Source: Halichondria panicea (lineage: Eukaryota; Porifera; Demospongiae; Suberitida; Halichondriidae). Taken from it: a stretch of 64,000 nucleotides of DNA. The position numbers and the translations under genes were made by a program. This document shows, piece by piece, positions 6,801 to 58,956 of the stretch. Below the pieces are notes generated by a model. The model saw nothing but the letters and a program-made list of their open reading frames with translations, was not told the origin of the DNA and ran no database searches. The first letter of the stretch is position 1. The number at the start of each line of letters is the position of its first letter. The stretch covers positions 5,524,169-5,588,168 of the forward strand of contig NC_087386.1 of the NCBI RefSeq assembly GCF_963675165.1, written 5' to 3'.

Positions 6801-9800
6801 GTGTGTGGTGTATCGATGAGTTTCGTTCACACTAGCTTCGGGAGGCCATAACTTGTTTGGAACGTCTAATTTCAAAAGAAAAGCTAAGAATGCATTCTGT
6901 AGATGTAGAGCTCTGAATCAGGGATTACATTACAAGCCAAAACCATAATTTTTGACTGACTAAAGCAAGATATCGATTCAACATTGGTAACAGATACCAA
7001 CAAATTTCGTACTGACGACTCTCACCTGCAGAGTAGGTCGAGCACCTGCCTGTGTCTAGCCTCGCCCACACACAGGGACTCCACCAGGCGACAGGAAGCT
7101 TGACGAGCTGACTGACTCGACCGGTTGAACAGCATGGAGCGGAGCCAGGTGTCGTGTTTGAGCAGCGAGCGAGAATGGGACACTATAGTAGTAGGGGAAG
7201 GGTTAATTAATGCAGTAGGGGAAGGGTTAAATAATGCAGAGGGAAGAGCTGTGCAAATGAGTGAAGAAGTTATATTAGTTGGAGGGTGTGCTCAGAAATT
7301 TGGGTATAGATTTGTTTAGTCATCACTGTTTACTCTGTAACTAGTTCATCATTCATCACCGCACACGGTAACCAAGGCACCGAATATGGTCGTTTTAATA
7401 AATAACCAATATTAATTATGTAAACTGCTAAATGCCCACAAAATGTACTCGGGTTGGCCACCATTCGGAAGTTAGTGATAGCAATAAGTAACTTTGTCAC
7501 CTTTGATGGTCTTCAATCTCCATATTCGGGCATACTTCTCCACAAGCCTTCGTTGTCGCAACTCCTCATTGCTTTGCTCTGTACAATTGTCCATCCCTGC
7601 TTTCCATTGGTCAAACGTGGCGTCTCCTTTCAGCCAATCAGACGTCTTAATAGTGATGTCATCACCTAGTTGAAGTGCATTGCAGTCGGCCAGGAACGAT
7701 TTTTTCTGTAACAAAAATTGCAACGATAAACTACCTGTATGTGTGATACATATTGTATAGCAACCACTATCACTGTAGTTCATCAGCCACATCTGTTCTC
7801 TCCAGTATAAAGTCAGGAGACCGTCGTGATGTGTACTAATCATCATCTGAACCACACCCACCCATCTATCTTACGTCTAAATCCAAACGACAGAAGTACA
7901 TAATAGTATAGCCTCCTTCACCGGCCTTTGAAAGAAGGCCTGCTATCGACTGCTTGCGCATGCGCCAAATTATTGGATTTTTTTCCCGTAAATATTTCTA
8001 TAATACTATAATATTGGATTTTTTACCCGTAAATATTTCTATAATACTGGTACATCAGAGAAAATATTCTAAAAGTCATACACAGAGCTATATAGCTAGC
8101 TAGCTAGAAACAGAGCTGTGTAGGTTTGTTGTACTGCTATTTTCTTCTGATAGAATCAGTAGCAGTAGTATAGTAGACTTTCACCAAAGTTAGTGTTAAA
8201 TGGGCGTGGCCTGTCCATATAGGCTCTTATCAGCCGTCACTCCTTTCAGACCATCGTCATCCACACTGTTGCAGGCTGTGAGTCTTTTGTTAACATAGCA
8301 GGCTAAGGGTAGCTATCAGAGAATGCTATCAGATGGGCTAGAAACCTTCAATCGAACTTTCTATCTACTTCCTTCAATCCACTTCCTTTTGTTGTGATGT
8401 CATAGTTTTACTGAGCATAAACGATGTTATCCAAAGCCCCCAGATACCGGGGGGATATTAGCGCATGCGCAAGCAGTCGATACCAGGCCCACTTCCCTAG
8501 CGGGAAGTGCGGCCTGGGATCGAGGCTAATAATAGTACGGTTTTAACTAGCAGTGCACATCATTATTATGATAACACAATTCTCTGCACTATATAGCAAA
8601 ATCAACCACCAAAGAAGACAATCACATCTTGAATCTCTCCCATGGTTCCTCACTATCCCCACTCTCTCCCCCATTACTCACTCTCCTCCCCATTACTCAC
8701 CTTGTCTTTGCTGCTCACTGCTTCTCGTGGGTAGATAACATTCTGCAGTATCTTGAGACAGGGCAGGGTAACCCCGGTGACAACAGCTGGGCTGGTGTTG
8801 AGTTGGGACTTCTGAAACAGACGCACAACTGGAGGAAGAAATCATGCAGTCGTAAAATTTGAGTGAATTTTGTTCGAAGGGATATTTGAGTTAGTTGGAA
8901 GTGTGCTCAGAAATTTGGGTATAGATTTGTCTAGTCTTCACTGTTTACTCTGTAACTAGTTCATCATTCATCACCGCACACGGTAACCAAGGCACTGAAT
9001 ACATTGTAAAGTTAACTCAATATTACAGACTATAGCCAATAAATTACAGTATATATGCATTGGACAAAACTTCTTCATTTGACCCCACCCACCTGTCCTG
9101 AGTCTCTCCTCCCAGCACGAGTCCTCCATGTCCAGTGAGGCTGCCAGCAACATGATCTCAGGACGAACAGCGGCAACCTGTACGAACAATTGGATGGAAC
9201 ATGATACAACTTTAATCTAACAAAAATGTTTAAAGCACTGGATTAGACCCTCTGTCAGTTTTCAGTGTTATCATTTTATGACTCACCAAGTTAGACGTGA
9301 TGTGTTTCGGCGCTATCTGGTCCAACACTCTGTCCAGTATGTAGCTATTGAGCTCAGCAGTGGCCACCGGGTCATCTCTGTGGGGGGGGGGGGGGAGGGG
9401 GGTAATTCGTACATGGCAGTAAAGCTATACAAACAAATTTGAGAAATTAACGACCAAGTGCACTTATAAATATACAAGACGTCACCTGGTCAGCTGACAG
9501 AGGAGGCGTCTCACATGTATCCTCATCTGCAGACTACCTGACCTCAGGTTCACCCGCACAAGCTCTCTAATCAGGTTCTGTGTGACTAACAACCGTCGTG
9601 TGGGGGCGACAAATGCTAGGGCTTTGAGGAGGTTGATACAGTGCTCAATTGATGCTGACGAGCAGCCAAAGCACCATCCTTGATGAGGGGCGTGGCCTTT
9701 AGGGGTGGGGGTAGAGTGGGCAGAGTCAACTCGGATCACGGTCGGGATGGACAACGACTGCGATGTGAAATAAATAATAAATACAAAAATGTGTGGAGTA

Positions 9801-35628: not shown

Positions 35629-36453
35629 CTGCAGAGGGAAGAAGTGGGGGTGGTGACAATGACACAATCTACCTCCAAACATAGATACTATAGAGTGCAC
35701 GGCATAATGTACATTGTACATCCTACAAACAATACATGCTCGATCATAACAACTGCTTATAACACTGTAGTGTGTCATGAGAGCTATTGTAACAGTTGAC
35801 CAGCTGGACTTGCTAGCAACTAGAACACAAAGGTCATTATTTCCAGGGATATATTAGCAACAACGATAACTCACTTGTCTCTTCTTTAATTGTAGAGAGG
35901 TCTGTATTATATAGACAGTGCATGAGGACCACTTTCAGCAGCTTAATCCTTCACCTAACACTGGTAGTGATCAAAGTCCTCGATCCTCACACACACTCTG
36001 GAAGCTGAGATGATGGGCTGTGTTCATCGATTGCCATTATCTGACATCTAGAGGCCTAGTTCTTTGGTCCAGTGGAAGGAGAAACCACTACTAATCGGGA
36101 ATTTAAACACCTCTATAGTTCATGATCAGCTTCGACACGTTGCAACTTATTGCACATAATTGCGTATGCACACATTTCCAATCAAAAAATGTCTGTCCTT
36201 TCCTCAAGGTAACGCGATTGTCATACAATGCACACTGAAACTGAACATATTTCTAAATAATATTAAAGGTTGGGCACCAGGAAAATTACGAAGGTTTTGA
36301 AAGAAATGGTTTCGAGCAACTCGTTTTGTAGCTTCTTTCACGAGACAATGTTATCTTCGATTTTTCAATGAGCTTGACCCCATCTTCCTCATATATACAT
36401 CGAGTCATTACAATAATAATTAGTGTCGTATAATAATTATGCAGAAGAAGTAA

Positions 36454-39400
36454 TCAATGGCTTGAAGAAGCAAAAGATTTATTTTTTAATTCTGTTTCAA
36501 TTTCCTCAGCTATATCATTGCGTCCAACAATTTTACTCCTCAGGCATACACATATGTAAGGCCATGTGACCGGATGATCTGAATCAGTGAGACGCTTGTC
36601 TATAATCTCAATCAGACGGCGTTGATTAGAGCAGTGTTCATCTTCAATATTTTTCAACACTGAAGTATGCAAATCAAAAGCCAGTCCCAGATTGAACCAA
36701 TCTTTCTGAGCATAAATCAGCTTCTCACAAATCGTTTTCAAAACAATCGGATTGGAGGACGACTGTTTTGTAATTTCTTTTGAGCTGGGATGCTCCTCCT
36801 CTGATGATTCTATATAATTCACACATAATTTGCCATTAGAAATTGCATGCTGAATGTACATACGACATTGAAGAGCTATATGCATTATCAAGCTATCTTT
36901 ATCGTGCTGAACAATTAAAGTCATCCAATGATTAGTGCCATGGAAACTGTCACATAGTAAAAGTATCCCCCGAAGTAGATTGCCCCCCCCCCGACACAAT
37001 AAAAATTTACTTCGGAGCAGTAGCATTAATCATTAATAATAATGCAAAGTTTATTATAGATCTAGAGGGACACATTGACAGATACGTATGGTCTACAAGT
37101 ACAGGTGTGTATTAAAGTAGATAGTGTGACATGTGATGAGGATATGAATATACTTTTTGGCAGGGGACACTTCGCTCTGACTCAATTACTTGTCTGGGGG
37201 GACAATCCATTCAGTGACAGAAAAATTCTCACAATAGTTTGTGGGATACCACATCGTCCGAAACAGCGGATTGCTTCAAAGCCATGCATCTAATTTATAC
37301 TGGATTATTTATTCTGGATTATGTACACTGTGCACATGCGCACAGTGTACATAATTGCTATATAGAGCACACTTGTGGGCTAATGCATTGTAATGTGTAT
37401 TGGGGCAGGATATAAAAATAGAATGACAGTGTGGGATATAATTATTCAGTGAGGGTCTTCAAAGCCAGCTTTACTGTCGGTATGTTCAGGTATACATAAC
37501 TCTGGAGTATAAAGTCAATCCAGTACAAACACTCCATCATGCACAGCACCTAGATATATATATATATATTTTATATGCATGAACTGACCTCTTTGTATGG
37601 CTGAGTAACTCGTCCCCGGGGTCTGAACTACTGAGGGAAAAAAGTTGGTAAACATCAAAAATATTTTCACATTCGCCCTGTTTGTGCAAGGAGGATAAAT
37701 CAGAGTTTGTGCATTCACGTTGTAAAACTAGCTTCAACATAGGATTTTCAGGACAGTATACAGTTATAGTATTGTATAGATTACTTACAATGAATATTTA
37801 GGTGCAAACAACGACTCTCTTCGTCTAAATTGGTATTCTTCAGCAGAAACTTTACTGAAAGAGAATACTCATTTTCAAGCAGAGTAAATTTGTAATGGAT
37901 GGCTGGGATAACTCCAAGTTGATTAGTCGAAAGTAGAACGTTTGAGTAGCGATCGATAGATTCTTTGGATAGCTACAAGACGGAAAGTGCATGCATGCAT
38001 GTAAGTAATCACACGATCATGTGTATGTAATGCACGTTACATCATAATTAGAGACGGTACTTAGTGCACAGTATAACCCCTCCTTCAAAAGATCGAGTGA
38101 TCATGCTTTTGACTTGCATTGTCTTGTGCATGGTAATAGAGCACTAACTAACTCACAACGGATGACGATTGCATATTAACAGTCCAATTACGGTGTGGCT
38201 GGGAGTTTTGTATCTCCATCTCTATTTCATTTTCAAATTGAATTTGACCTCGATCCACCAATTCTTTTGTGAATCCATGGCGATCTCCTTCAAGCTCTTC
38301 TCTAATTATCTGTATAATGAAAACTCATCATCATGCATAAATAATTATGTTACGCTGTCAGATTTAAGCTCAAACATCACAATGTCAAAACACATGCATG
38401 CAACATGCATAATTATCACTCCGGAAACCTACATTTACATGAGTGCGTAGATCCCGACAGATCACACATTTCACGTCAATTACGACAACGTTACGCAGTA
38501 AGTAAGTTCTGCTAAACAGCAAAGCACTGTACATTTTCTCAATTGTAAAGCCAAATACTTTACGAACGTAAATACCAAAGCCCTCGAAACGAGTAAGTTC
38601 GATAGATCCATAGGATTGGCCAATAGGAAAGTGTCCACCCTCCAGGGTCTCAAATACTTCGTTCTGGTCTGTTGTTCGAGCAATGACAAGAGGGTCAGCC
38701 CTTAAACTGGCACGATGTTGTATTTGTAAAGTAAGAGGCTTCTTGAACTGCACTTCGGGCTCACATTTCACATAATATATTAAACTGAATAGGTCTGAGT
38801 TTGCAGGAATCTCAAAGTCAGTGGATGAGTCAAAGAATATGTGTAGGACACACGTATCGGTTCCTTTAGGTAGGCAATTCTTGGGGAATTTAATTTTAAA
38901 TCCGAACGTGCTGAACTCCTTAGATTTGTTAGTGACTTCCACAACAGTTTTTCCAATGCGACCTGTGATTCAAAACTCAACATAATTAGTATCATAGTCC
39001 AGAGAGCAAATTAAGGCATCCGGCACACTATTATAACTATAGAAAGAGCTCCAAAAAGATAATTAAACCTGGTGATGGTATGGTAGCCTGGATTCCAGGC
39101 AGGAGAGAGGCAATCCAAGGGTTTGGAGTTGAGGCTAATTGTATGGATTCGGTGCCATTGTGTGTTGACTCTTCATTCCTTCCAGTATAGAACTCACCTG
39201 AAGCTGAAAACAAACGTGTCTTATTATTGTACATACAACCATTAACCTCATCATGCCTGAGTTAAATAGCTGGTTGAGGTTATATATCTTTACGAATCTA
39301 TATACAACTGTTCTTGAACTAACGTTATATTTACAACTCCATGCCAGGAGCTTTTTCTGGCAGTGAAGTTGAGTGAAGATGTATAAATTTTGGTATACTT

Positions 39401-39534
39401 TAGTTATAATTTTTATGTCATGTTCTAATTAACACACCTAGTAAGCTAGTGGTAGAAGGCACTGGAGGATCCAACTGCTCGTCAGTGACTCCCTTCTTTA
39501 CCATCAACTGGTGGAAGCTGGTGGTCCCTGGTTT
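36454..39534 (-). CDS. ZU5-Death module exons (possibly 3' part of a composite gene)
   Basis: Exons: 39534-39438, 39203-39069, 38962-38439, 38309-38157, 37972-37789, 37630-37589, 36809-36454 (stop at 36454). The large exon encodes a ZU5-type beta domain: FGFKIKFPKNCLPKGTDTCV, VKCEPEVQFKKPLTLQIQHR, GSIELTRFEGFGIYV. The two following exons may form a UPA-like segment. The last exon encodes a Death domain (ICEKLIYAQKDWFNLGLAFD, HPVTWPYICVCLRS). ZU5 plus Death occurs in UNC5, PIDD and ankyrins, where the Death domain recruits signalling partners. Phases at every junction agree. The first two exons (KPGTTSFHQLMVKKGVTDEQ, FYTGRNEESTHNG) are linkers I do not recognise. No start codon is evident. Confidence 0.75.
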
Positions 39535-39712
39535 CTATACACATACATATGAACATGTAAATCTGAACAGCTTCAGTTCTAGGGTACATTGGATTACAAT
39601 GTAGAAAGGTCTAATTACGGGTCAGGTTAAGAGGATCTATATAGCTAAGATCAGGAGTTCAACTCCTGCATGCTATGATAAATGTACAAATACTCCACCT
39701 TTATAAACCACA

Positions 39713-39924
39713 CCAGGGTGTCATACAGGATTTTGAAGTAGAGGGGGAAATAAGAAAAGTAACTTGCTAAAAAAAAGGTCAACTGTTCAAGTATTTCAAT
39801 ACTCTGTTAGTATGTAAAATTACCAGCTATGGACCCAAACTAGTACCTGAATGCAAATTTTAGGGGAGGAAATTGGAGCTTGAGGGAGGATATCCCCCCT
39901 TTCCCCCTCCCCTGACACCCTGAT
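39713..39924. mobile_element. Inverted-end MITE (CAGGGTGTCA type), copy 1
   Basis: CAGGGTGTCATACAGGATTT at the left and CCCTGACACCCTG at the right. G-rich near the ends. Copy 2 is at 41941-42089 and a diverged one at about 53697-53945. The ends resemble hAT MITEs. Confidence 0.65.
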
Positions 39925-39977
39925 ATAGGTACATGAGCAATTAAACTGCATGCTCACTATCCGAAACAAGAGCTCAC

Positions 39978-41794
39978 CTTCACGGCAACAGCTGTTTGCT
40001 TTGAGAGGTAATCGAGTATCTCCTTGTAAGCCTTCCTTTGTTTGAATCCCTTCCATGCAGCCTGTAGCTTGACAGTGTCCTCTTGACGTGAGGAGAGGAA
40101 CTCGAGTCTCTCCTTATATGGTCGTCTCTCTCTAGCCCCCCTCACTCTGGCTTGTATCTGGATGATGAGTGGCTCGTTGGCTTGCATCAGAGTCCACCTG
40201 TCATAGTCTGCTGTCACCTTGGTAACCACAGCCTGTGAGGGGGAGAGTATGCAAAGGTTGGTATAAATCTTTCAGCAAACGATAAACTTTCCAGCTATAC
40301 ATATACATGTACACCGATACAAAAGTTATATTATACAAACATCAACACATTTACACACACACGTACAGCAAGGGAAAAGTAACTTCACCTGTATTTCATC
40401 TTTGCTGAGTTCACAAGATTCTCCAGTGAATCCTTGAGGCTCTGCCCACTGCCCCTCCCCTGTCTGGCTGTTGTGGTAGTAGGTGTACCCTCCATGAAGG
40501 TGGTGGGCTGACCATCCATCATTGTCAGACACTCCTGTGTATAAAAGTAAAACTGTGAACGCCTCCGTCAATATGTACAGTACATTCTTTCGAATAAACT
40601 TGGGTAAAGGTATATAAGTAGCTAAAACACGTACATGTAACATACAAATCTGTCAACTGAGCTATTTAAGTGCCATAGAATTCCCCTCGACAGATTCTCT
40701 GTTAACTCACCCACCCACACACCACACACAACACACCACACACACTCACCTTTGTCCATTTTCTCCTGTCGTGCTGCACTCAGTTTCTCTAAGTACGTGT
40801 CAGTGCAGCTGTCAGTGATGGAGCGGATGTTGGTAGTGGGGGCTTTGATGGCCTCCAATGTGGCGGCTGGGTCGTTGCTCTCCACAGCACGGTTGATGGA
40901 GCTCACCGCCTGGGCGTCTGTGAGTGTGTGTGGGGGTGTGTGTGTTAAATCGCTACGTAAACGTGCCACCTTTCATTGTTTAGGTCATTATAGATTCAAA
41001 ATGGACCTTAACTCGTACTTCACCAAACTCAAGGAGTACTAATCTCTACCATACATGTGTATATACCAGAATATCATATGGGCCTTCCACTAAAATGTGT
41101 TAATCGTTTACAGAGCAATCCTTTACGAGGATGATGTAAAAATAATTTCCGGGCCAACTCTCCGCTTTACACACATTCTTCCACAATGCAACTATAAGTC
41201 TATTCACTCACATTCCAGTGCCTCCACAGTCTGAGCGTTGGCCTTTTCCACCATGCCTTGTATCTCTTCCCTACTCAACACTGCCTCTGGGTCACTCTCC
41301 AACTTAACCGCAAGAGCAGCCTTGAGTAGCGTCAGGTAGTGAGGGGCCTGGGGCTCTTGGATACCCTCCAGATGGGCATGGTCGCTTTGTAGCGCCTCTA
41401 GAAGAGCCTGAGGGTCATCTGCTGTCAGTGTACTGTTGATGGTGACAATGGCCTCAGCAGCTAAAAACGAAAAGCATTGTCACTGCAGAGGTCACCATGC
41501 CTATATTGCATCTACAGTAGGTCTATATGCTGTACAGGTCAACACATTTCTCATACATAGTACAGCATTTCAAGCTTCTAGCAATTGAAAACTATGCACA
41601 TAGGGAACAAAATACAATTCCAGTTAAAGCGGGTGTACATGCAGCTTACACAGTCAAGATGACACACACACTATAGCCTCTAACTCACAGAGTGTCTCTT
41701 GTCTAACTTCCTCGTTGACCTGAGCCACGACATCACGTATCTCTGCCTCTGTGAGAGCACCACCTTTCCTCAGTCGAGCCTCCTCAAGGGCATT
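39978..41794 (-). CDS. IQGAP-type helical repeats, WW and IQ motif exons
   Basis: Exons 41794-41689, 41460-41212, 40917-40750, 40534-40389 and 40232-39978. The first three encode IQGAP-type repeats (AQAVSSINRAVESNDPAATL, KLSAARQEKMDKG; earlier INSTLTADDPQALLEALQ). The fourth encodes a WW domain (GGYTYYHNSQTGEGQWAEP). The fifth encodes IQ-like helices (IQARVRGARERRPYKERLEF, LQAAWKGFKQRKAYKE) expected to bind calmodulin-like light chains. The order repeats-WW-IQ is that of IQGAP scaffold proteins. There are no calponin-homology, RasGAP or RasGAP-C exons. Instead, ZU5-Death exons follow on the same strand in a compatible phase. This is either an IQGAP relic or part of a composite gene. Confidence 0.8.
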
Positions 41795-41940
41795 CTGAGG
41801 GGGGAGGGTGTGTGAGTGTACATCGATCAATATTGAAAGTACAACGCTGGTGAATAAGAAAACCTTCGACGTTTAGCAACAAATAATAGAGCTATCAACA
41901 CCCAAAATACCAATTAAAACTTATTTAAGTTTACCATGTT

Positions 41941-42089
41941 CAGGGTGTCATACAGGATTTTGAAATAGAGGGGGGAAATGAGAAAAGTAACCAGAAAATG
42001 TTGCTAAAAAAGGTCAACTGTTATTTCAATACCCAGCTATGGACACTCAGTCATAATTGAAGGGGGGGGCCCCTGTATGACACCCTGCA
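41941..42089. mobile_element. Inverted-end MITE (CAGGGTGTCA type), copy 2
   Basis: CAGGGTGTCATACAGGATTT at the left, CCCCTGTATGACACCCTG at the right. It shares AAAAGTAAC and AAAGGTCAACTGTT with copy 1. 42090-42830 beyond it holds no gene that I can support. Confidence 0.7.
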
Positions 42090-43003
42090 CACCGACTAGG
42101 TCCTGTACATATATGTAATACATGAGGGGAAAAGGACAGTCATTATTATAGTGATGAAAGTGCCATGGGACGAGTGTGAGTTAATTGTGTATCTGGGCCG
42201 GGGTTAATGACTTTTGTAAGAGAAGTAGTATGTGCATTTGTTTGACCAATGTATGAAATTATATTATGACCAATACTGAGGAATGTTACTGGCAAGGCAA
42301 AATCCAATATGCATAAAGTAAAACTACAATAATTATGTGAGTGAAGGTTCAGTATCTTAACAATGTGGCCGAAAAATGCACAGCAGTAGATCTAACTTAG
42401 TATTATAAAAACGGATACTAATTTTAGCGAATTTTGTAATGAACGCTAAATTAAGTATGCACTAACAATTTAAAAAAATTATGAATCTCATTTAAACTTT
42501 TTTCTTTCATGTACTTTTGTATAAAGAGTATGCTAGTACATATTTTGACAAATATTGTGCTAATGAATTTGCTACAAATCCGACAAAATTAGTACCCTAA
42601 AAACAGTCTGTAAAATTACTACCCGTCTATAATAGTAACATTAAGGTATCATTAGAGCCATGAATTTCTTAACCACACACGAAGTGGCGCCAACACTCGG
42701 TCATGAATAATTTTACAGGACCTATCATGTCATTCCGTGGGATATATTTGTGAACGGTTGTGGGTACAGTTGACATATGCAGCAATCAGTTCAGGCTCCA
42801 GCAAGACAGGTACTATACATAGAAACTTGACAGGTCTGTCAACGAACGGCCTGAACGGCCTGCATGGTCTCGAGGCATATGCAATAATTCACGTAGAAGT
42901 TGGTCAAACGTAGAAGTTGGTCAAGATAAAAGCAAACCATGACTATATAGACCACACACAGGTGAGCAGACTCTGAGATGTGTGTACAGCTACTTACACT
43001 CAC

Positions 43004-44063
43004 CTCTTTGGGTACATTGACATTGGCCCCAGCATCGATTAGGGGCTCCATACATTTCTTGTGACCACCAAAACTGGCTGTCCGAAGAGGGGTCTCTCTC
43101 GACTGTACATAGGAGGGAAAAGAATGTTGACATCATATAAGCTGACGAAACACATAAGAAACCTCACTCACGCACCATCCTGGGGTGCTGTAGACACAGC
43201 TTTCTGAGTGAGACAATCACTTCGTCAACTGATGGTCTCTGTTGAGGTCGGTCATGGAGGCAGCTAACAACAAGAGGATAAAGAGCGTGTTTCTGCCCCA
43301 TTTTGTCACCATGGACAGCAGTGCTTCGACGCATGAGCTCCACCTGTCCCCAGAAAGAGTTGATATAGTTGTAAAGATTTTGTTTAACTTCGTTGACTTT
43401 AGGGAAATCACCGATAATAGTGTGAATGATGAGATGACCGAATGAGAAGATGTCCAGCTTGGTAGTGTAGGTTGGCTCTTCTCCATGACATTCGGGAGGC
43501 ATGTAGGTTGGATTTCCCGGGACACTTGTCAGAACATGAGTCAATCTGTCCAGGTCCACATACCTGGAGACACCCAGGTCTCCGATCTTGGCAGTGAGGT
43601 CCTCAGTGAGCAGGATGTTGGGAGCAGTGAGGTCACGATGGATGAGGGGAGGGGTCAGAGAGTGTAGATAGTGAAGGCCCTTGGATATATCATACAGGAT
43701 ACGGATTCTAGTGGCGATATTCGTGTCTCGATGGGTTTCAACAAAAATAGCCAAGTCGGAATGAAGCCTCTCCATTATTAAACTGATGTCGCTCTTATCG
43801 CGGCCGTAATGGACGCCAACAAAGTTGACTATGTTGGGATGATCCAGACTGCTCAGAATACGACATTCATTGCAGAAATTTGTTAAAATCCTCTCTTGAT
43901 TTTGTAGGAGCAATATGGAGTGGATTTTCTTAGCAATGCAGTCTCTTCCATTCACCGTCACTCTAAAGACACAGCCATAAGCCCCATGACCAGCTTGGTT
44001 CTCCTCTAGACCCAATCCTTCCACCTGGACCACCAGAGCATCAAGGTCACTTCTTGTAGCCAT
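43004..44063 (-). CDS. TKL-like protein kinase with ankyrin repeat (K1)
   Basis: Exon 44063-43176 (ATG to a GT donor, 296 codons) encodes a complete kinase fold. It has Gly loop GHGAYGCVF (25-33), IAKK Lys (45/46), Glu66 for helix C, catalytic HRDLTAPN (142-149), Asp162 in DLG rather than DFG, MPPE (188-191) and DIFSFGH. Exon 43102-43004 (99 bp, phase 0) adds one ankyrin repeat (TPLRTASFGGHKKCMEPLID). Kinase followed by ankyrins is the layout of RIPK4 and ANKK1. Compared with the paralogue at 58.6 kb the rest of the ankyrin array is missing. The next minus-strand exons are the IQGAP-type ones, in compatible phase. Unlike that paralogue, the start codon is intact. Confidence 0.85.
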
Positions 44064-44569
44064 TTTGAAGATTTACAGAAAAAGGGTCTTTGTGTTCCTT
44101 GGTCATATGACACATTCTCCTACTGCGCATGCCCAGGTATCCAGATGTATTTCAGAAGCTTAATGATCTTTACCAAATCAGACACATAAATAGGACTTGC
44201 ATCAGAGGACTTGCATGATGTGTCTTGGACCATGGCGAATGGAGAATAGAAAGACCTACTGTATAGGCAACACAATTCATGGTAAGTGTGAGTACCCTCC
44301 CACCCTACAATAGATACCTCCATCAGCTGGCTAAGATATCATTCTCACTACTCTCATGTGTCTGGATCTGAGAGGCGTCAGATCTTCTAAGTCACGTACC
44401 TTTCAACGGCCATCTAGCTAGCTAGCTGCATATATCATCATTTCAGTCTGTTATTATTGTGTACAGAATTGTACCTTATTATCTCAGCTACCCCACCACT
44501 AGATACCTCACACACACATCTTGAGCCCCTAGTATCAGAGTGTACTAATCTCGTCCCTCTCTCTCACAG

Positions 44570-44996
44570 ATTGTTTCGTTCTCCTACTTTCTTTGGGATT
44601 GCCGGAGGAGTGACTGACAGTGACTGTGTGTACTCTGTCCTGCCCCTCTACCATTCCCACGGCCTCGCACACGGTGGAGGGCCTATGATCTACACAGGAG
44701 CCACTCTCGTCATTAGGAAAAAGTTTTCTGCCAAACACTTTTGGACCGATAGTGCAAAGTACAACTGCACTGTGAGTTGGCTAATTGACTGGGGCTGACC
44801 CACTTACATTAATGTCTTAGATAGACAGTACGTGTTGTTATGCTTTCAGCTATTCTTGCCTTTGCTTTCACTACACAACTTGAGCTATGTATCACTGTGT
44901 ACGGGTGACATCACTTCATTTATATCCACTTACTCCCCCACTGTGCAGATGGTGTGCACGATTGGGGAGTTGAATCGCTACGTGTTGGTCCAACCC
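44570..44996 (+). pseudogene. SLC27A: Fatty-acid transport protein (SLC27A) fragment
   Basis: Exon 44570-44771 encodes VYSVLPLYHSHGLAHGGGPM, TLVIRKKFSAKHFWTD and KYNCT, the AMP-binding domain of very-long-chain acyl-CoA synthetases and transporters. Exon 44949-44996 continues MVCTIGELNRYVLVQPP. The match stops abruptly inside this exon, where galactosyltransferase sequence begins. No upstream or downstream SLC27A exons are in the window. A truncated relic. Confidence 0.8.
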
Positions 44997-45170
44997 CCTG
45001 GCTGTATCCGAACCTTGACCCTTTCGAGGAGCATGACGAGAGGTTCGTCCATGTTGCCCAGCTGAGACAGGAAGGTCTGGAGACTACCTCTTTGTGAGTT
45101 ATCTGTGTGGTCATCTCTAGCCTCGTTCCCGGCCCATCTATTGTAACAACCTAGCTAGGCTATCTCTAGA

Positions 45171-45895
45171 CGTACAGTGCATCCAGCTTAGAGAGTAGAT
45201 TACCACAAATTTGTGAGTAGCTGTACTTAAATGTAAATATCTTTTGATCGGAACATTTCTAAGAAATGGTGTTGATACCAATGTGTAGATGAATGACCAT
45301 GAAAACAGTAATCTTGTACAGATAAGGTCCTAGACTTCATCACATAATTGTTCAATGGTTTAGGTATCCTGACCATCCCTTTATGGGTCTTACATTATGT
45401 TCATAGTGTTTATAATTCATGATTTACTAGTTTTCAGGTACACTTTTGGTTAGAGTAATAACTTCTGACAAATTAATAGCTTAGCTTTCAAATTTCTGTA
45501 GTAAGTTAACAGATAAATGGGCTACATTTTGATACCAAGAACATCCTATATGCTTATTCCATTGTTGACTGAAAAGCTACATAATTACTATTTTCTACTG
45601 TTTTGATGACATCAGCAGCTGCAAACCACAAACCAATGCCGCTTTATCAACCACAAACTTAATTACGATTACCCACTATAACAATTTGTTGTTGTTCTAT
45701 TAATCACCACAAACCCACCACCTTATGTTTCCATGGAAACATTTTTGAGTATGTTGTAGCTTGGTCATTCACCTACACATTGGTATCAACACTATTACTT
45801 AGAAATGCTCCAATCAAAAGATATTTACATTTAAGTACAACTACTCACACATTTGTGGTAATCTACTCTCTAAGCTGGATGCACTGTGCCATTAT
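45171..45895. mobile_element. Element with about 125-bp inverted ends inside a COLGALT intron
   Basis: The left arm ACAGTGCATCCAGCTTAGAG...GTAGATGAATGACC is mirrored by GGTCATTCACCTACACATTG...GCTGGATGCACTGT at the right. The 470 bp between them has no long frame. A target duplication is not clear. Confidence 0.75.
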
Positions 45896-46649
45896 TATAC
45901 AGTGAAGTCACCCTGTAAGCAGGTCACCCTCTATAATACAGCCAGGTTAATGGGGCCCAAAGTCTCCATAGCATGTGTTTGGACCGGTGTTAGCAGGCCA
46001 CCTCTTTATTTCAACCACTGTTAGTCTGCCCAAGACAGTAGTAGATACAGTTTTAGTTATTGCAATTTTGGTATCCACAGTATCTAGCTCAGATTAACTA
46101 TACAATTGTTGTTTATCCTGCGGCTAGACTGTGACAACTTTCTGGTGAACAACAGGACACTACGGATTCTGATGGATCAGCAAAGGTAAGTCAGTGCGTG
46201 TACAGTCCATAGGGAGGGGATAACTTGTCTATATGTACGAGGCTTGCACTGAATACATTATTTGCTGACCTGTGGACTTTATTATGGTACATGTATGTAC
46301 ATGTAGAACAAGTTTGAATTGTCCCCTTCCCTCCACTGTAGATCTGCCTATGCACATTCTGAACACCGAGGTGTTTGGGTTCATTGTCAAACCAGAGGAC
46401 TATGAGAGCCTGGACCACGCTGCTCAGGACTTCCTTAACTTTAAGCTGGAAAACCTTGGTGAGCCCCTCCCCCTTAAAGCTGCGGTGTCATCTGCTCTTT
46501 ATTAGTATAGCCAGTAGCCATCTCAGTGTGTGCTGATATAGCTCCATTGTTGCTGTGAACAATGTGTGTGGGCGGGTATAATTAGTGCAGGTCATAATAG
46601 AGGGGCTCTTTTAATAGTGTTCCCACAACATCCTTGACTGTGTATCCAT

Positions 46650-47060
46650 TAGTGTGTGTATTGTCTCCCCCCACACAGTGGACCACCCCCCTATACTGCA
46701 TTAGTGTGTGTGTTGTCTCCCCCCACACAGTGGACCACCCCCTATACTGCATTAGTGTGTGTGTTGTCTCCCCCCACACAGTGGACCACCCCCCTATACT
46801 GCATTAGTGTGTGTATTGTCTCCCCCCACACAGTGGACCACCCCCCTATACTGCATTGTGTGTGTATTGTCTCCCCCCACACAGTGGACCACCCCCCTAT
46901 ACTGCATTAGTGTGTGTGTTGTTTCCCCCCACACAGTGGACCACCCCCCTATACTGCATTAGTGTGTGTGTTGTCTCCCCCCACACAGTGGACCACCCCC
47001 CTATACTGCATTAGTGTGTGTATTGTCTCCCCCCACACAGTGGACCACCCCCCTATACTG
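46650..47060 (+). repeat. 52-bp minisatellite containing a splice acceptor
   Basis: About eight tandem units, each with ATTAGTGTGTGTGTTGTCTC, CCCCCACACAG and TGGACCACCCCCCTATACTG. The last unit supplies the polypyrimidine tract, the AG acceptor and the first codons of the COLGALT exon at 47040. One unit (near 46855) is about 4 bp shorter. Confidence 0.9.
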
Positions 47061-47334
47061 TACAGTCAGTACATCTCCAGACCACACCCTGTCAAGAACA
47101 ACTTGGGGTTGGACGTGGTAAGCTGTCTCTACTATTACAGTTATGTTGTATGTGTACGGAAATCATAAAAGTTCACTGATAATTTCCAAACAATATTTTG
47201 TAGGTGTTCATGATTGGGCTAGTACGGAGGCCAGAAAGAAGGAACCGGATGATTTTAAGCCTGGACGAGCTCAACTTCAACTACACCCTCTTTGAGTGCT
47301 GTCGATGGAAGGTGAGAGAAAGTTAATAATTATA

Positions 47335-47560
47335 CATCGTATGGAGTAAGGTTTTAGATAGTGGCTTATCACGTCCAACCCCAAATTGTCATTGAGAGAG
47401 GGTAGTCTTGAGATGTACTGCATGGTGTAGAGTATAGGTTCACTGTGTGTGAGGGGAGACATAACTGGCTGTACAATACAGAGGGATGGGGGAGGAGACA
47501 ATACACACTAATTGATACACAACGATGTGGTGGGGAACTCATATTTAAAAGAACCTCATT
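47335..47560 (-). repeat. Inverted copy of the minisatellite-exon segment
   Basis: On the minus strand this repeats 46600-47130: an acceptor-like CACACACAG followed by codons for EPILYTMQYISRLPSLNDNL, then a donor-less end. It carries one minisatellite unit where the plus-strand copy has about eight, so it may preserve the unexpanded state. Non-functional in the sense gene. Confidence 0.8.
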
Positions 47561-48549
47561 TTATCCCTGGCCACTACAGACAGTTGAATCAGAGCTTCCT
47601 GGACAGTCTGGGCATCAAGTACCTACCCGGCTGGAAGGACCCTTGGGGAGAACAACCTATGACCTTTGGAGAGGTCGGCTGTTTCCTTAGTCACCACACG
47701 ATATGGCAGCAGGTGAGTGGGCGTTAGTGGACACTTGTTGATGTGTACAGAAAGTATTGCTACCTGTTGCATTGTGGGCACTTGTAACTGTGTGAAACCT
47801 GTCTAATGTGGTCACCCTCTATAATAGTACAGCCAGGTTAATGTGCTCCTAAGTCTCCTGTGTGCGGACACAAACATTAGCTGTTTGAGCGAACTAGATA
47901 CTTTCATGAACTGCTTTAACTGATGAAGCGGTGGTTGAAAATACTTGTCTTCGAAGGTGACAAAAAACACTGTTTTCCAATCGTTGCTTTGTAGAATCCC
48001 CATAATGTTAAAGTCATTAAAATAAAAAGTTGATTGCGTGTCTGTTATGTCAACGCACGGGATGAATGCTCTACTGAGCATCTTGTTATAATAGCCACTG
48101 TTGGTCTGTCCAAGGGTGACCAGTATAGACAAGTCTTACTGTACCTCTCTTGCCCCCCAGATGATGACGGAGGGTCTGGATCAAATCCTGATTCTGGAGG
48201 ATGATGTCGTGTTTGAGCCCTACTTCCGACATGACCTCACTAGCTAGAGTACTGGAAGAGGCCAATCGGATCACACCAAACTGGGACCTCATGTGAGAGC
48301 TCTGGAGATATACAGTCTATTATTATACGCAATGTCCGTATCTCGTTAGACAATATTCCAATCTTTGCTTACAAGTAGTTCAGTGCAACACCATAAATAA
48401 GGCACACCTTATAATCAGCTGACAGTAGTCTAGAAGTAAGAAAATTGCTGTCTAATTTCCTTGAACTATAACCATGCAAGTTTGGATTGTCCAACTTACA
48501 ACAAGTTAACGCTAGATTGTTGTATATAGAGATGCATTTCATGATACAG

Positions 48550-49099
48550 GGGATGGGTCTTCTTCACTGGGCCTGTGACCGTGGCAACCTGAACATGGTG
48601 AAACTACTTGTGAAGAGGGGAGCAGATGTTAATATTGAGGACACAGACAATCAGACACCTCTTCATTATGGTGAGAGATGGAGTATTCCTTTACAGAGGG
48701 TGCTTGTGTGTTAATACATGTTGAAGCTAGCTGTCTGTTTGTAGATCTTTGTTTGAGTCCAATGCTCCCTCTACTGAATAGTGAGGGAAGTCAGTTTGGC
48801 TGTGTATCTATGGTAACCTGTGAGATCTTTTTGTATTTGCATTAAATGATTAATATTGATGATGATCGAGGAAAAAGACCCTAGAGCTATAGAAGTTGAG
48901 CTGGTTGATGAATTAGATTTATTCACGGTAATAATTATGTCTCTTTTTGAATTTCTTGATTTTCGCGATTGATTGTATTTCCTCTACAGCTGTGTCATGT
49001 GATCATCATGCTGTCATCTCTTATCTACTGCAAGTGGCCAAAGCAAGAACAGACATTGCAGATTGTGATGGCAACCTACCTCAAAATATAATTATGTGA
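48550..49099 (+). pseudogene. ACBD6: ACBD6-like C-terminal ankyrin exons, partial
   Basis: Exon 48550-48670 encodes GLLHWACDRGNLNMVKLLVK and RGADVNIEDTDNQTPLHY. Exon 48990-49099 continues AVSCDHHAVISYLLQVAKAR, DIADCDGNLPQ and a TGA stop. The pairing and the sequence match the two ankyrin repeats at the end of acyl-CoA-binding protein ACBD6. The acyl-CoA-binding exons are absent. Both exons are open and splice in frame, but the gene is 5'-truncated, so it is probably a relic. Confidence 0.75.
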
Positions 49100-54800: not shown

Positions 54801-57800
54801 CATTATACAATATCAAATGAGTGCCGTACTTCTATTGCTGTGTTTGCAAGACTACCGGATTATTAGCGCATGCGCTTTTAGCAGAGCTCTATATACGCTT
54901 ATATTCGAGAATGCGCCTATAATGCAGTCACTTTGAGCCCCACCCAGCAACCGGATGTCTCTGTGATGAGAGCTGACTCGCAAGCTGGCTAGAAAGTGAG
55001 CAAGCAAGGCATGCAGGCAACCCCTAATGGGGCAACTAATACTGCATCGTATCTCAGTTGTATGTATGTATGTACCGTATAGCAGGTAATTTTCGGGGGA
55101 CAAAATATTCGTGGTTCAGCAATATTGAGACATTTCGTGGGTAATATTTTCGTGGTTGGAGCTTGCACTGCTGGTAAAGGTAGGCAAGGTCGCTTCATTC
55201 GTGGGTAAAATATTCGTGGTCAGACCTCCAACCACGAATATTTTGCTCCACGAAAAAATTACATGCTATACAGTATATGTCACGCTCAGGAATGTCACGC
55301 TTCAGGAATGCGGAATTGGGTGTGGCTACATTCGGTTAATCTTTACTACCTCCAAACCGATCTACTATTGGCATAATTATGCAGAGAATAAAGCTATAGC
55401 TATATAAGAGTCTCACTTGAACAAAGCCAACAACGACACTACTACTCTTGAAAGCAGAGTTCTTGAGAGACTGATTCTAGCCAAAAATGTACAAGTTATG
55501 TTTATTAATTGCTATTTCATAATGAAAGTACCTCGGTGGGTATCAAAGCTACATAACATTAAAAGCTGTTTTATACACACATTATACAATGATGAATATT
55601 AATTTTGCTGCATGCAGAATCCATCACAGGGATGATCGACAATAATTGTTGTTAAAACGATCGATGCCAAGAGTTCAAGTTTAAAATTGATGGCTGCATC
55701 AGCAGAACCTTGCAGCGCAACTACCAATAGCTAGCGTTATAGTGTAGAGCTAGCTACTAAGTATATAGAGTAGCAACACTCAGTGGACAAGTTTTGGTAC
55801 GTACTCTTCTGAAAAGGCTGCAATGGCATTCCAAGTAAGCAAAACTAGGCATAACTCGAGAACGAAGCATCATTTTGCAAATCCATGAATTAAAATCCAA
55901 GAAAACTAGAAGCCTATAGAAACTCTTATACTTACACTTCATTGATCCTTGAGCAGCTGTAGCAGTCTACACAGTACAGAGAGACAGTCACATGCACACA
56001 CATATTAAAACACATGCGCACCAAGGCATAATTATACCCAAATCTCCTCTCCTTCTTTCTCCTAAATTGTACTTAAATATAACTCTGCGCGAGGCTAATC
56101 ATGCGTGTGCGTATACCTTGTACTATTATGTTACAATTCGTTTTACAGTTCATTTACATCATCATTTAAATTTACATTATAAAAACATTCATATTGACCA
56201 GGAACTTGGAATATCATTCATGTCTCACATTCTCTCAGCATGATCAGACAAGGTAACAGCATGCCCAGAGAGTCCTTCCTGATGGATATCACCATCTATA
56301 ATTATAGCTATCATTCAAGAACTGTACAAGCTAATTAGCTCATAGATAAACTGAATCAATTCTAAAATTTCACTTTCACTCATAACCTTCGCATAATTGG
56401 AAAAGCGCTTCAATTTGAGTATAAAAAGTCTGCAGTTGAGCATGCGCTTAAAATAAATATACGCTTATGGTCGAGTAAGCGCTAATAATCCAGTTTCTGC
56501 TACCGTATTACTAGACATTTTGCTGGTGACTATCAGGAGCATTGAAACGAGCCAAATCAGCGAAAAATCATTCAATTTTTGTGTTCTGGCAAGTCTTACA
56601 TGTACCAGTTGGTCCTCAGCTCGCTGACATAGTTTCCCAGACCCATTAGTTCGAATGTTCCATCATCTAAATAACCCTTTCCATGAAGATCAATTATGCA
56701 AAATAGTTTTTGTGAAGCGGCGATCAACACTCGCAAAATTCGCTATGTTTGATGCTCGAAAAATATTCTACTAATAGTGAATATGGGTGAAATTTCCCGG
56801 AGGCGTATAATTAGAAGGGGGCTTAGAAGTATCGAAACTCCACTTAATCGTATATGCTGTGCTATTAGCGACTGGAGAGTGCACAGCAATTAATCCTGTA
56901 TCACATCTGGTGGCACATTGTCATTGATAGCGTGCAATTACCTGTCAAGTAATTGCACGCTGCAACTAGTATCCTTGCCATTGCTTGTTACTCGTGTAAT
57001 CCCATATTGCACTCTTAGCCATACAAATTATTCACTACCAGTTAGCTGGTCTAAACACAAACACGACTAGCTCTGGTGTCTAATGGACCAGGTCAACAGA
57101 ACATGGGGAGGCTCTGTGGCTAGTGGCCTCTGAGATGTGTGTACAGCTACATACACTCACCTCTCTGGGTACATCAACATTGGCCCCAGCATCGATTAGG
57201 AGCTCCATACGTTTCTGGTGACCATTGAAACTGGCTTCCCAAAGAGGGGTCACTCCGGACTGTACATAGGAGGAAAACAATGTAAACAGCATGTTGCGGG
57301 ATACGTGTTTGTACAACAAAACCTTGGTCTGAGTGTTGACTGTAGCCTTGGCTGCTAAGAGGACCCTCACTATCTCATCATGTCCATTGTTAATGGCCCA
57401 GTGAAGAGGAACATCCTGTAGAGACAATATCATCAACCAACGGACATATTGGCACTGTAGAGACAGTATTCCCCTCACCTTGTCTGCCTGGTTGGGATCA
57501 GCCCCACACTCCAGTAGCTCCAGAACCACACCCACATTACCCGTCTTACAAGCATCTAAAAATTCCTGGGAGAAAAATGCATTTACTAATTCACTCACAC
57601 AAAAGCACCAGCACACCAACACTTAGTCTATTTAATTATAATTCTGACACAATGGACAAATATGACAATGCACATTTATTTTATACCTCCACCCACTCAC
57701 TCACGTACCATCCTGGGGTGCTGTAGACACAGCTTTCTGAGTGAGACAATCACTTCGTCAACTGATGGTCTCTGTTGAGGTCGGTCATGGAGGCAGCTAA

Positions 57801-58604
57801 CAACAAGAGGATAAAGAGCGTGTTTCTGCCCCATTTTGTCACCATGGACATCAGTGCTTCGACGCATGAGCTCCTCCTTTCCTCCTATAGACTTGAAATA
57901 GTTGCGAATACTTTGAGGTACGTGGTTGACTTTAGGGAAATCTCCGATAACAGTGTGAATGATAAGATGACCGAATGAGAAGATGTCCAGTTTGGTAGTG
58001 TAGGTGGGCCGTTCCACACGACACTCGGGAGGCATATAGCCTACATTTCCCGGGGTGCTTGTTAGAACAATTTGAGTCAATCTCTCCAGATCAACGTATC
58101 TGGAGACACCCAGGTCTCCGATCTTGGCAGTGAGGTCCTCAGTGAGCAAGATGTTGGGAGCAGTGAGGTCACGATGGATGAGGGGAGGGGTCAGAGAGTG
58201 GAGATAGTGAAGGCCTTTGGATACATCATACAGGATATGGATTCTAGTGGCGATATTCGTGTCTCGATGGGTTTCAACGAAATTGGCCAAGTCAGAATTA
58301 TGAAGCCTTTCCATTATTAGACTGATGTCGTTCTTATCGCGGCCGTAATGGACTCCAACAAAAGCGACAATGTTGGGGTGATCCAAAACACTCAGAATAT
58401 GACACTCATTTTGGAACATTGTTACAATCCTCTCCCTCTGTCCAAGGTATCGCTCTTGGAGCAATATGTGGTGTAGTTTTTTAGCAATGCAGTCTCTTCC
58501 ATTCACCGTCACTCTAAAGACACAGCCATAAGCCCCTGAGCCAGCTTTGTTCTCCTCTAGATCCAATCCTCCTTCCACCTGGACCACCAGAGCATCAAGG
58601 TCAC
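51859..58604 (-). CDS. Kinase-ankyrin protein (K2), 14 exons, start codon lost
   Basis: Kinase exon about 58604-57709, then ankyrin exons 57565-57479, 57415-57323, 57259-57161, 54744-54646, 54595-54497, 54346-54248, 54178-54080, 53606-53508, 53457-53359, 53076-52978, 52559-52461, 52410-52309 and 51930-51859 (stop TGA). The kinase has GSGAYGCVF, IAKKL, HRDLTAPN, DLG and MPPE, as in K1. Most ankyrin exons are exactly 99 bp, phase 0, one repeat each (TALIVAAQNGHVRAVELL-type). Four repeat types recur in order, with a degraded third-type exon near 53110-53215. The ATG present in K1 and K3 is deleted here, and the codon just upstream in this frame is TAA. The gene needs another first exon or is a pseudogene. 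A RIPK4/ANKK1-like signalling role is inferred from the layout. Confidence 0.75.
52735..52903. repeat. Interspersed repeat (partner at 20596-20783)
   Basis: Contains GCTTTATTTATGCTTTATGT, TTTTTAACAAGGA, AAATTCAGTGAATT and CACAAATAGACTTTAG, shared with 20596-20783. It lies in an intron of the ankyrin gene. Confidence 0.55.
55073..55276. mobile_element. MITE family A, copy 3
   Basis: TATAGCAGGTAATTTTCGGG at the left, inverted AAAAAATTACATGCTATACA at the right, with the interior as in 15033 and 30742. It lies in the 2.4 kb ankyrin-gene intron (54745-57160). The rest of that intron has no gene, only a shared block at 55800-55975 (see 25330) and MITE family B at 56502. Confidence 0.8.
56502..56780. 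mobile_element. MITE family B, copy 3 (diverged)
   Basis: CCGTATTACTAGACATTTTG at the left and inverted GCTCGAAAAATATTCTACTA at the right. It is longer than the other copies because of an internal insertion. 56781-57100 shows nothing I recognise. Confidence 0.65.
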
Positions 58605-58956
58605 TTTATTTTGCAGCAGTTTACATAGATCTATAAAAGGCCTTAATTTCTTGTAAAACTTAATGCATGCATGTGGATGTATGCAGAATCTAGTGCTTTT
58701 ATAATAGCAACATCTTATACCCAATATTTAAGAGTACCATTAACGACCTTTACCATAGAGCTACATGCACCTGTACCCAAGCTTGAGGAAAGACTGTCTA
58801 ATAATAACTATAATTATGATCACACAATGATAATAACGAATGTTCAGCTAAAATGTTGGATATAAAACGCTAATGTCAACTAATCTTGTGAGTATAATAA
58901 CACTTGTAAAAATGTTTAATCATATATAATTATAATAAGTTTCTACTGGTACTGGT

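Follow-up and report, generated by a model that had tools for sequence, protein, structure and literature searches.

Apparent transposon-mediated capture of IQGAP exons, which may have produced a hybrid signalling gene in the sponge Halichondria panicea

How did exons of an IQGAP scaffold come to stand, in frame, in front of exons for ZU5 and Death-type domains in a sponge? The question is raised by a stretch of 64,000 nucleotides of the Halichondria panicea genome (RefSeq assembly GCF_963675165.1, contig NC_087386.1, positions 5,524,169 to 5,588,168; the whole stretch is referred to as the window), in which an original prediction, made from the sequence alone, had placed twelve minus-strand exons running from 41794 to 36454. 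The positions and lengths of all twelve were confirmed: the acceptors are AG in 12 of 12 cases, the 11 donors are GT (the final exon closes with a stop codon), the phases agree, and the joined exons comprise 2415 nt or 805 codons, with the sole stop at the end. As had been claimed, the first five exons are of the IQGAP type, and their frame agrees with that of the ZU5-Death part. A new WW-IQ-ZU5-Death architecture could not be sustained as an established one, as the IQGAP block was detected at two places in the genome, is young and lies between two copies of a transposon that resembles a miniature inverted-repeat transposable element (MITE). The best explanation, which we regard as probable, is that a composite of two MITE-like elements carried the IQGAP exons into a host gene and gave rise to an in-frame hybrid gene. 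A transposon origin of the block is very likely; an in-frame hybrid transcript is predicted with about even confidence. The predicted architecture would be young and single, and the process would be of a known kind, transposon-mediated exon capture, in a new form.

The genome from which the window comes (131 Mb in 39 contigs) was searched with the 308 residues encoded by exons 1-5. Of the 15 rows returned, five came from the window and five, at 83-97% identity, from contig C7; the other five were weak (E 0.0496 or worse), and one of them also falls within the C7 IQGAP gene. In the whole genome the block was detected at two places, the window and the C7 gene. The latter, described here from the parts identified and not from a full gene model, lies at C7:3394000-3412500 and contains a CH exon, a further IQ exon (sub-threshold), RasGAP across two exons and RasGAP_C, for which both genome-wide matches at E 0.001 or better are in this region. 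The statement that IQGAPs continue into RasGAP holds for this gene. Window positions 39923-41941 aligned with C7:3402143-3404840 at 89-90% identity, introns included; because the introns were copied along, the window block is best read as a partial DNA duplicate of IQGAP, and as neither a retrocopy nor a second IQGAP. Within an intron of the C7 IQGAP gene there is also an open frame (L001, about 6907-7515) whose start resembles a signal peptide by eye and which has a very weak match to Prok-JAB (E 0.082).

The domain labels of the original prediction fared unevenly. IQ stood, one stretch reaching 30.7 bits, above the Pfam cut-off of 20.3, and a second IQ-like stretch being recognised by eye; WW scored under its cut-off (21.8 against 26.9 bits) but matched WW chains in PDB (best E 2.4e-8, with no IQGAPs among the 21 listed chains); ZU5 and Death are weak in the window copy. 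By their near identity to the C7 gene, the WW, IQ motifs and IQGAP repeats of the block are those of an IQGAP. Compared with the family (CH - repeats - WW - IQ - RasGAP - RasGAP_C), the five exons, their boundaries and their frame are alike, with 26 of 924 coding bases differing from C7, and a chance in-frame fit of exons 1-5 was rejected because the C7 source gene has identical boundaries and frame. The window differs in holding an internal piece only: it starts after the CH exon of the C7 gene, lacks the further IQ exon, and is followed not by RasGAP or RasGAP_C but by a Death-like remnant as the next exon.

The homology with C7 halts, to the base, at two short elements (Table 1), both of which start CAGGGTGTCA and end CCTGTATGACACCCTG and lie in the same orientation. 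Of about 673 genomic candidates for this family, 40 were scored, and these 40 make up the listed matches; its terminal inverted repeats and many copies are those of a MITE. The best 16 of the 40 matches were cut as loci, one of them being the window's own, and an exact 5-bp target duplication was present at the standard ends in 14 of the 15 other copies and absent from one (L024). In the window, element 1 is bordered by GTGTG on its outer and AACAT on its inner side, and element 2 by TATAT on its inner and GTGTG on its outer side, while C7 carries a single AACAT and a single TATAT at the matching places. A duplication of fixed length on the outer ends of a pair, with none per element, is the arrangement of a composite transposon. 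As neither element has a duplication of its own and both outer flanks are GTGTG, the element-exons-element unit probably entered in one piece as such a composite; independent insertion of the two elements is disfavoured for the same lack of individual duplications. A further copy of the family was found inside a kinase paralog locus (L041:2847-2976).

The pair interrupts an apparent small host exon. Left of element 1 the window reads ...TACAG/GACCTAGTCGGTGTG and right of element 2 it reads GTGTGGTTTATAAAG/GTGGAG (slashes mark splice-like borders). Two paralogs are uninterrupted: L028, on contig C22, reads ACAG/GACCTAGCTGGTGTGGATC...CAAAAG/GTTTGAG, its splice-like borders lying 45 nt apart, and L005, on contig C6, reads ACAG/GACCTAGCTGGTGTGGCTC.... 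Because both paralogs read through without it, the composite appears to have landed inside a coding exon, a status suggested by the splice sites and the frame in the paralogs. Right of the duplication the alignment of the window with L028 is short and gapped, so the original end of the exon in the window is uncertain. A 17-bp tandem pair (window 42891-42924) lies in the intron left of the insertion.

An assembly duplicate is unlikely, since the window copy differs from C7 at 64 of 1059 aligned noncoding bases (divergence 0.063), by 21 insertion/deletion events (indels) and by the flanking elements. With the block at two places in the genome, the same divergence led to the rejection of an ancient architecture. 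The 26 coding differences comprise 14.5 synonymous and 11.5 nonsynonymous changes (synonymous divergence, dS, 0.072; nonsynonymous divergence, dN, 0.016; dN/dS 0.226), and the coding alignment has zero gaps, against the 21 indels in the noncoding part. A dN/dS below 1 could stem from constraint on C7 alone; a neutral window copy beside a fully constrained C7 gene would be expected to show 18.8 nonsynonymous changes, against the 11.5 observed. The conditional chance of zero coding indels on a neutral window branch, assuming that events split half per branch and that exon and intron rates are equal, was 0.0005 for 21 events, 0.004 for 15 and 0.013 for 12, the two lower counts being our own discount for repeat tracts. 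About one stop would be expected in a neutral window block and none is present. The lack of coding indels against 21 noncoding ones suggests constraint on the block and, together with the lack of a stop, gives moderate support for a maintained coding sequence.

The original model missed both flanking elements and also two in-frame exons upstream of the block, which encode a protein kinase and a single ankyrin repeat (44063-43176 and 43102-43004). Joined to the IQGAP block and the host exons they give 3402 nt, open until the final stop and encoding 1133 residues; if the block, which is phase 0-0, is skipped, the kinase-ankyrin part still joins the ZU5-Death exons in frame (825 residues). A stop in frame directly at the acceptor of exon 39534 means that this exon can be translated only once spliced in, or else from its own internal ATG. 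No Rfam family reached its gathering score in window 36000-44500.

The kinase exon is one of a very large family, with 137 matches listed (of 793 candidates, 132 were scored), many of which lie on contig C10 at 83-95% identity. Homologues of the ankyrin exon occur in L003, L004, L009, L041 and L042. In L009, a neighbouring paralog broken by stops, a kinase, a cut ankyrin exon, linker 2 and ZU5 stand in line and in the same orientation; the same is true of ankyrin, linker 2 and ZU5 in L003. The host gene is probably longer than first described, with the kinase and ankyrin exons in front, and their presence in the same transcript as the rest is probable, not certain. Where the window has the kinase and one ankyrin exon, upstream of the small exon, L027 and L028 carry a long open exon instead; its L028 version, an open frame of 820 residues, gave a sub-threshold match to COR-A (E 2.5e-7; 31.1 bits, cut-off 35.3). 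In L028 (C22:17500-27400) and L027 this long exon is joined to a Death-like exon, and ZU5-like and final Death-like exons follow in L028. A second kinase copy in the window (57709-58614) carries one TAA.

The exon at 39534-39438 had been taken for a plain linker and turned out to be a Death-like remnant. It has 39 other genomic matches (on C5, C6, C8, C10, C14 and C22), 38 of which overlap its first 67 nt and one its last part. Its counterpart in L026-L028 is a longer open stretch (Pfam Death E 0.0042 in L026, sub-threshold), and its final part corresponds to the last part of the exon that comes next in L028; on these two grounds a deletion is read as having shortened the Death-like domain in the window. 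The exons that follow (linker 2, ZU5, UPA-like and Death-like) are ordered as in the paralogs. The ZU5 exon has matches at 11 other loci, 8 of which are among the 27 genome-wide ZU5 matches (all 8 over the cut-off); the window exon is absent from those 27, and its putative ZU5 identity is taken from the family, since this copy is below the cut-off. A PDB profile search with the ZU5-UPA alignment found nothing. Where ZU5 proteins that cut themselves, PIDD among them, have HFS, the window has RFE and three compared paralogs have RFS, so self-cutting of the window ZU5 would not be expected.

For the final exon (36809-36454) no hit to Pfam Death was obtained. Among five members of its family, three gave sub-threshold Pfam Death matches and two, instead or in addition, a weak match to an unrelated family, and the family profile matched one amylase (E 0.019) and five FADD chains (E 0.45-0.56) in PDB. 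When Death was searched for across the genome, with 150 of 503 candidates scored, the window exon was not listed, and a comparison by eye found none of its relatives in the list either. Relative to L003, the Death-like exon differs at 5 of 351 bases, while the UPA-like exon at 37793-37972 carries 16 nonsynonymous changes and 1 synonymous change relative to L003:1710-1889; the contrast between the two exons (Fisher P 0.13) may reflect exchange or diversifying selection.

Table 1. Features of the putative hybrid locus, in window coordinates
Feature	Position	Strand	Remarks
Protein kinase exon	43176..44063	-	888 nt; ATG at 44063; donor GTGCGT; Pfam Pkinase E 1.2e-37; proposed first coding exon
Single ankyrin-repeat exon	43004..43102	-	99 nt, phase 0-0; Pfam Ank E 0.0084, 16.8 bits (cut-off 21.1)
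Small host exon, left 15 nt (GACCTAGTCGGTGTG)	42088..42102	-	last 5 nt are the left duplication GTGTG; uninterrupted match in L028 and L005
MITE-like element 1	41941..42087	-	147 nt; ends CAGGGTGTCATACAGG and CCTGTATGACACCCTG; without own target duplication
Putative captured IQGAP piece	39923..41940	-	exons 41794-41689, 41460-41212, 40917-40750, 40534-40389 and 40232-39978, with introns; C7 homology ends at the elements
MITE-like element 2	39714..39922	-	209 nt; orientation as element 1; ~70% identical to family copies; without own duplication
Right target duplication GTGTG	39709..39713	-	followed by remainder of interrupted small exon; paralogs carry one GTGTG
Death-like remnant exon	39438..39534	-	first 67 nt Death-like, fused to end of next family exon
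Host linker exon 2 (ASGEFYTGR...)	39069..39203	-	matches in L003, L009, L027 and L028
ZU5 exon	38439..38962	-	Pfam 16.2 bits against cut-off 21; 28.3 in paralog L006
UPA-like exons	38309-38157 and 37972-37789	-	paralogs match in same order; named from position after ZU5, no profile hit
Short exon 37630-37589 and Death-like exon 36809-36454 with stop	36454..37630	-	Death-like exon has many genomic relatives

We propose that a 2.0-kb internal piece of the IQGAP gene with five whole exons gained flanking copies of one MITE family, and that the element's transposase would then have moved element, exons and element as one unit, by transposition and not by recombination. The target would have been the small coding exon of a gene with the order kinase/ankyrin - Death-like - ZU5 - UPA - Death, in which the 5-bp duplication was made. 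Splicing could then join the donor of the ankyrin exon to IQGAP exon 1, whose acceptor is pyrimidine-rich by eye, and exon 5 to the Death remnant, and translation would yield a hybrid of the order kinase - ankyrin - IQGAP repeats - WW - two IQ-like stretches - Death remnant - ZU5 - UPA-like - Death-like. Since phase 0 holds at both ends of the captured set of exons and also for the host exons on either side, an in-frame hybrid is the likely outcome.

Several observations weigh against this proposal. The C7 donor shows no element at either end of the matching stretch, so the donor composite can only be inferred, and no transposase was linked to the element; for a hAT transposase, one candidate mover, both element ends were found in none of the ten loci cut from 32 hAT matches (about 3.2 kb each, so that the ends may fall outside the cuts). 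By another route, an element may already have sat in the small exon with its GTGTG, the IQGAP piece and the second element being added by recombination or break repair. An identical outer duplication would result, and the two elements are indeed unlike in length (147 and 209 nt) and in their divergence from the family; this route also requires an element beside the donor piece, however, and is hence no simpler, and we consider it quite improbable. It also counts against a functional hybrid that the acceptor of the interrupted exon (start 42102) survives and, if used, leads to a stop in element 1 after 21 residues. The insertion may then be dead, the gene ending early at that stop or decaying and the IQGAP exons being young passengers, and the position of the composite inside an apparent coding exon and the stops in the neighbouring paralog L009 would be in keeping with this. 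The substitution test alone is undecided between a neutral and a constrained copy: 11 or 12 nonsynonymous changes gave P 0.04-0.07 (Poisson), 0.07-0.10 (all neutral changes) or 0.16-0.28 (synonymous changes only), and substitutions by themselves do not reject a neutral window copy. Yet the block has neither an indel nor a stop, against the 21 noncoding indels, and the kinase and host exons are still open; a dead insertion is possible but, in our judgement, doubtful.

The remaining points against the proposed hybrid concern its two ends. At the tail, the sequence supports 'Death' as a weak, family-level label. At the head, the kinase paralogs L041 and L042 (two kinase-ankyrin loci of the 137 matches, 95% identical) are followed by ankyrin exons, and over about 7 kb of downstream sequence neither ZU5 nor Death was matched, so that the kinase may be part of a different gene. 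Three units would then lie at the locus: a gene for kinase and ankyrin, a fragment of IQGAP that is not transcribed, and a ZU5-Death gene that starts independently. The ankyrin, linker 2 and ZU5 exons are, however, kept collinear and in one orientation in L009 and L003, and a separate start for the ZU5-Death part, an alternative for which the original prediction had allowed, is disfavoured by the in-frame stop directly before exon 39534 and by the internal position of this exon in the paralogs; separate units are accordingly thought unlikely. With both joins in frame, the block could also be an optional cassette, the 825-residue host protein being the main product and the IQGAP form a minor isoform. 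We hold this unlikely as well, but it overlaps with the best explanation, a MITE-carried block that gave an in-frame hybrid gene, and the two judgements are not mutually exclusive.

UNC5/PIDD-like proteins have the order ZU5 - UPA - Death. Compared with these and with the ZU5-Death genes of the same genome, the order of ZU5, UPA-like and Death-like exons is shared with the paralogs, whereas the front differs (kinase, ankyrin and IQGAP block), ZU5 is sub-cut-off and Death is without a hit in this copy. DAPK-type kinases combine kinase, calmodulin-binding stretch, ankyrin, ROC-COR and Death. If the hybrid is expressed, its kinase, ankyrin, calmodulin-binding part and Death-like domain would resemble them in function only, kinship of its kinase to DAPK not being implied; unlike in DAPK, the IQ stretches of IQGAP would replace the autoinhibitory calmodulin segment and ZU5-UPA would replace ROC-COR.

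With regard to the carrier, Pack-TYPE elements hold captured DNA inside one element's ends, whereas the capture in the window lies between two complete short elements. Pack-TYPE transposons of plants carry coding DNA and shuffle it into genes (PMC8903248), and transposon-carried coding DNA appears likewise to have been put into a gene here. Transduplication by Turmoil-1 of C. elegans built gene fragments into inverted repeats (PMC2572040) and is similar in that an animal transposon carries host coding sequence. The window differs in having five exons with their introns between two elements, and the frame kept in a multi-domain host gene. In the literature searched, no IQGAP-ZU5-Death protein and no paper pairing IQGAP with exon shuffling were found, which does not prove the absence of either.

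Just upstream of the kinase, on the plus strand (window 44418-48714), an exon matching an AMP-binding enzyme (E 1.8e-6, below the cut-off) and an ankyrin exon were seen, and eight near-identical 52-bp tandem units occupy window 46647-47060.

The locus is thus presented as a base-resolved, well-preserved transposon-mediated exon capture, which may have made a hybrid signalling gene. That a pair of MITEs, in one jump, built a working calmodulin-binding kinase with a Death-type tail, and that selection has kept it in an early-branching animal, is a tentative extension of this, which we would not yet favour. If such a protein is made, its IQ stretches would let calmodulin bind a kinase with a Death-type oligomerisation tail, the functions of the parts being taken from the named families, and its expression would connect calmodulin binding with Death-type signalling in a new way. 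As a rule, exon shuffling is inferred only long after it took place; here the source, the carriers, the target duplication and the uninterrupted target are readable in one genome, and because all parts can be read at about 6% noncoding divergence, the assembly steps of an animal multi-domain signalling gene become directly testable.

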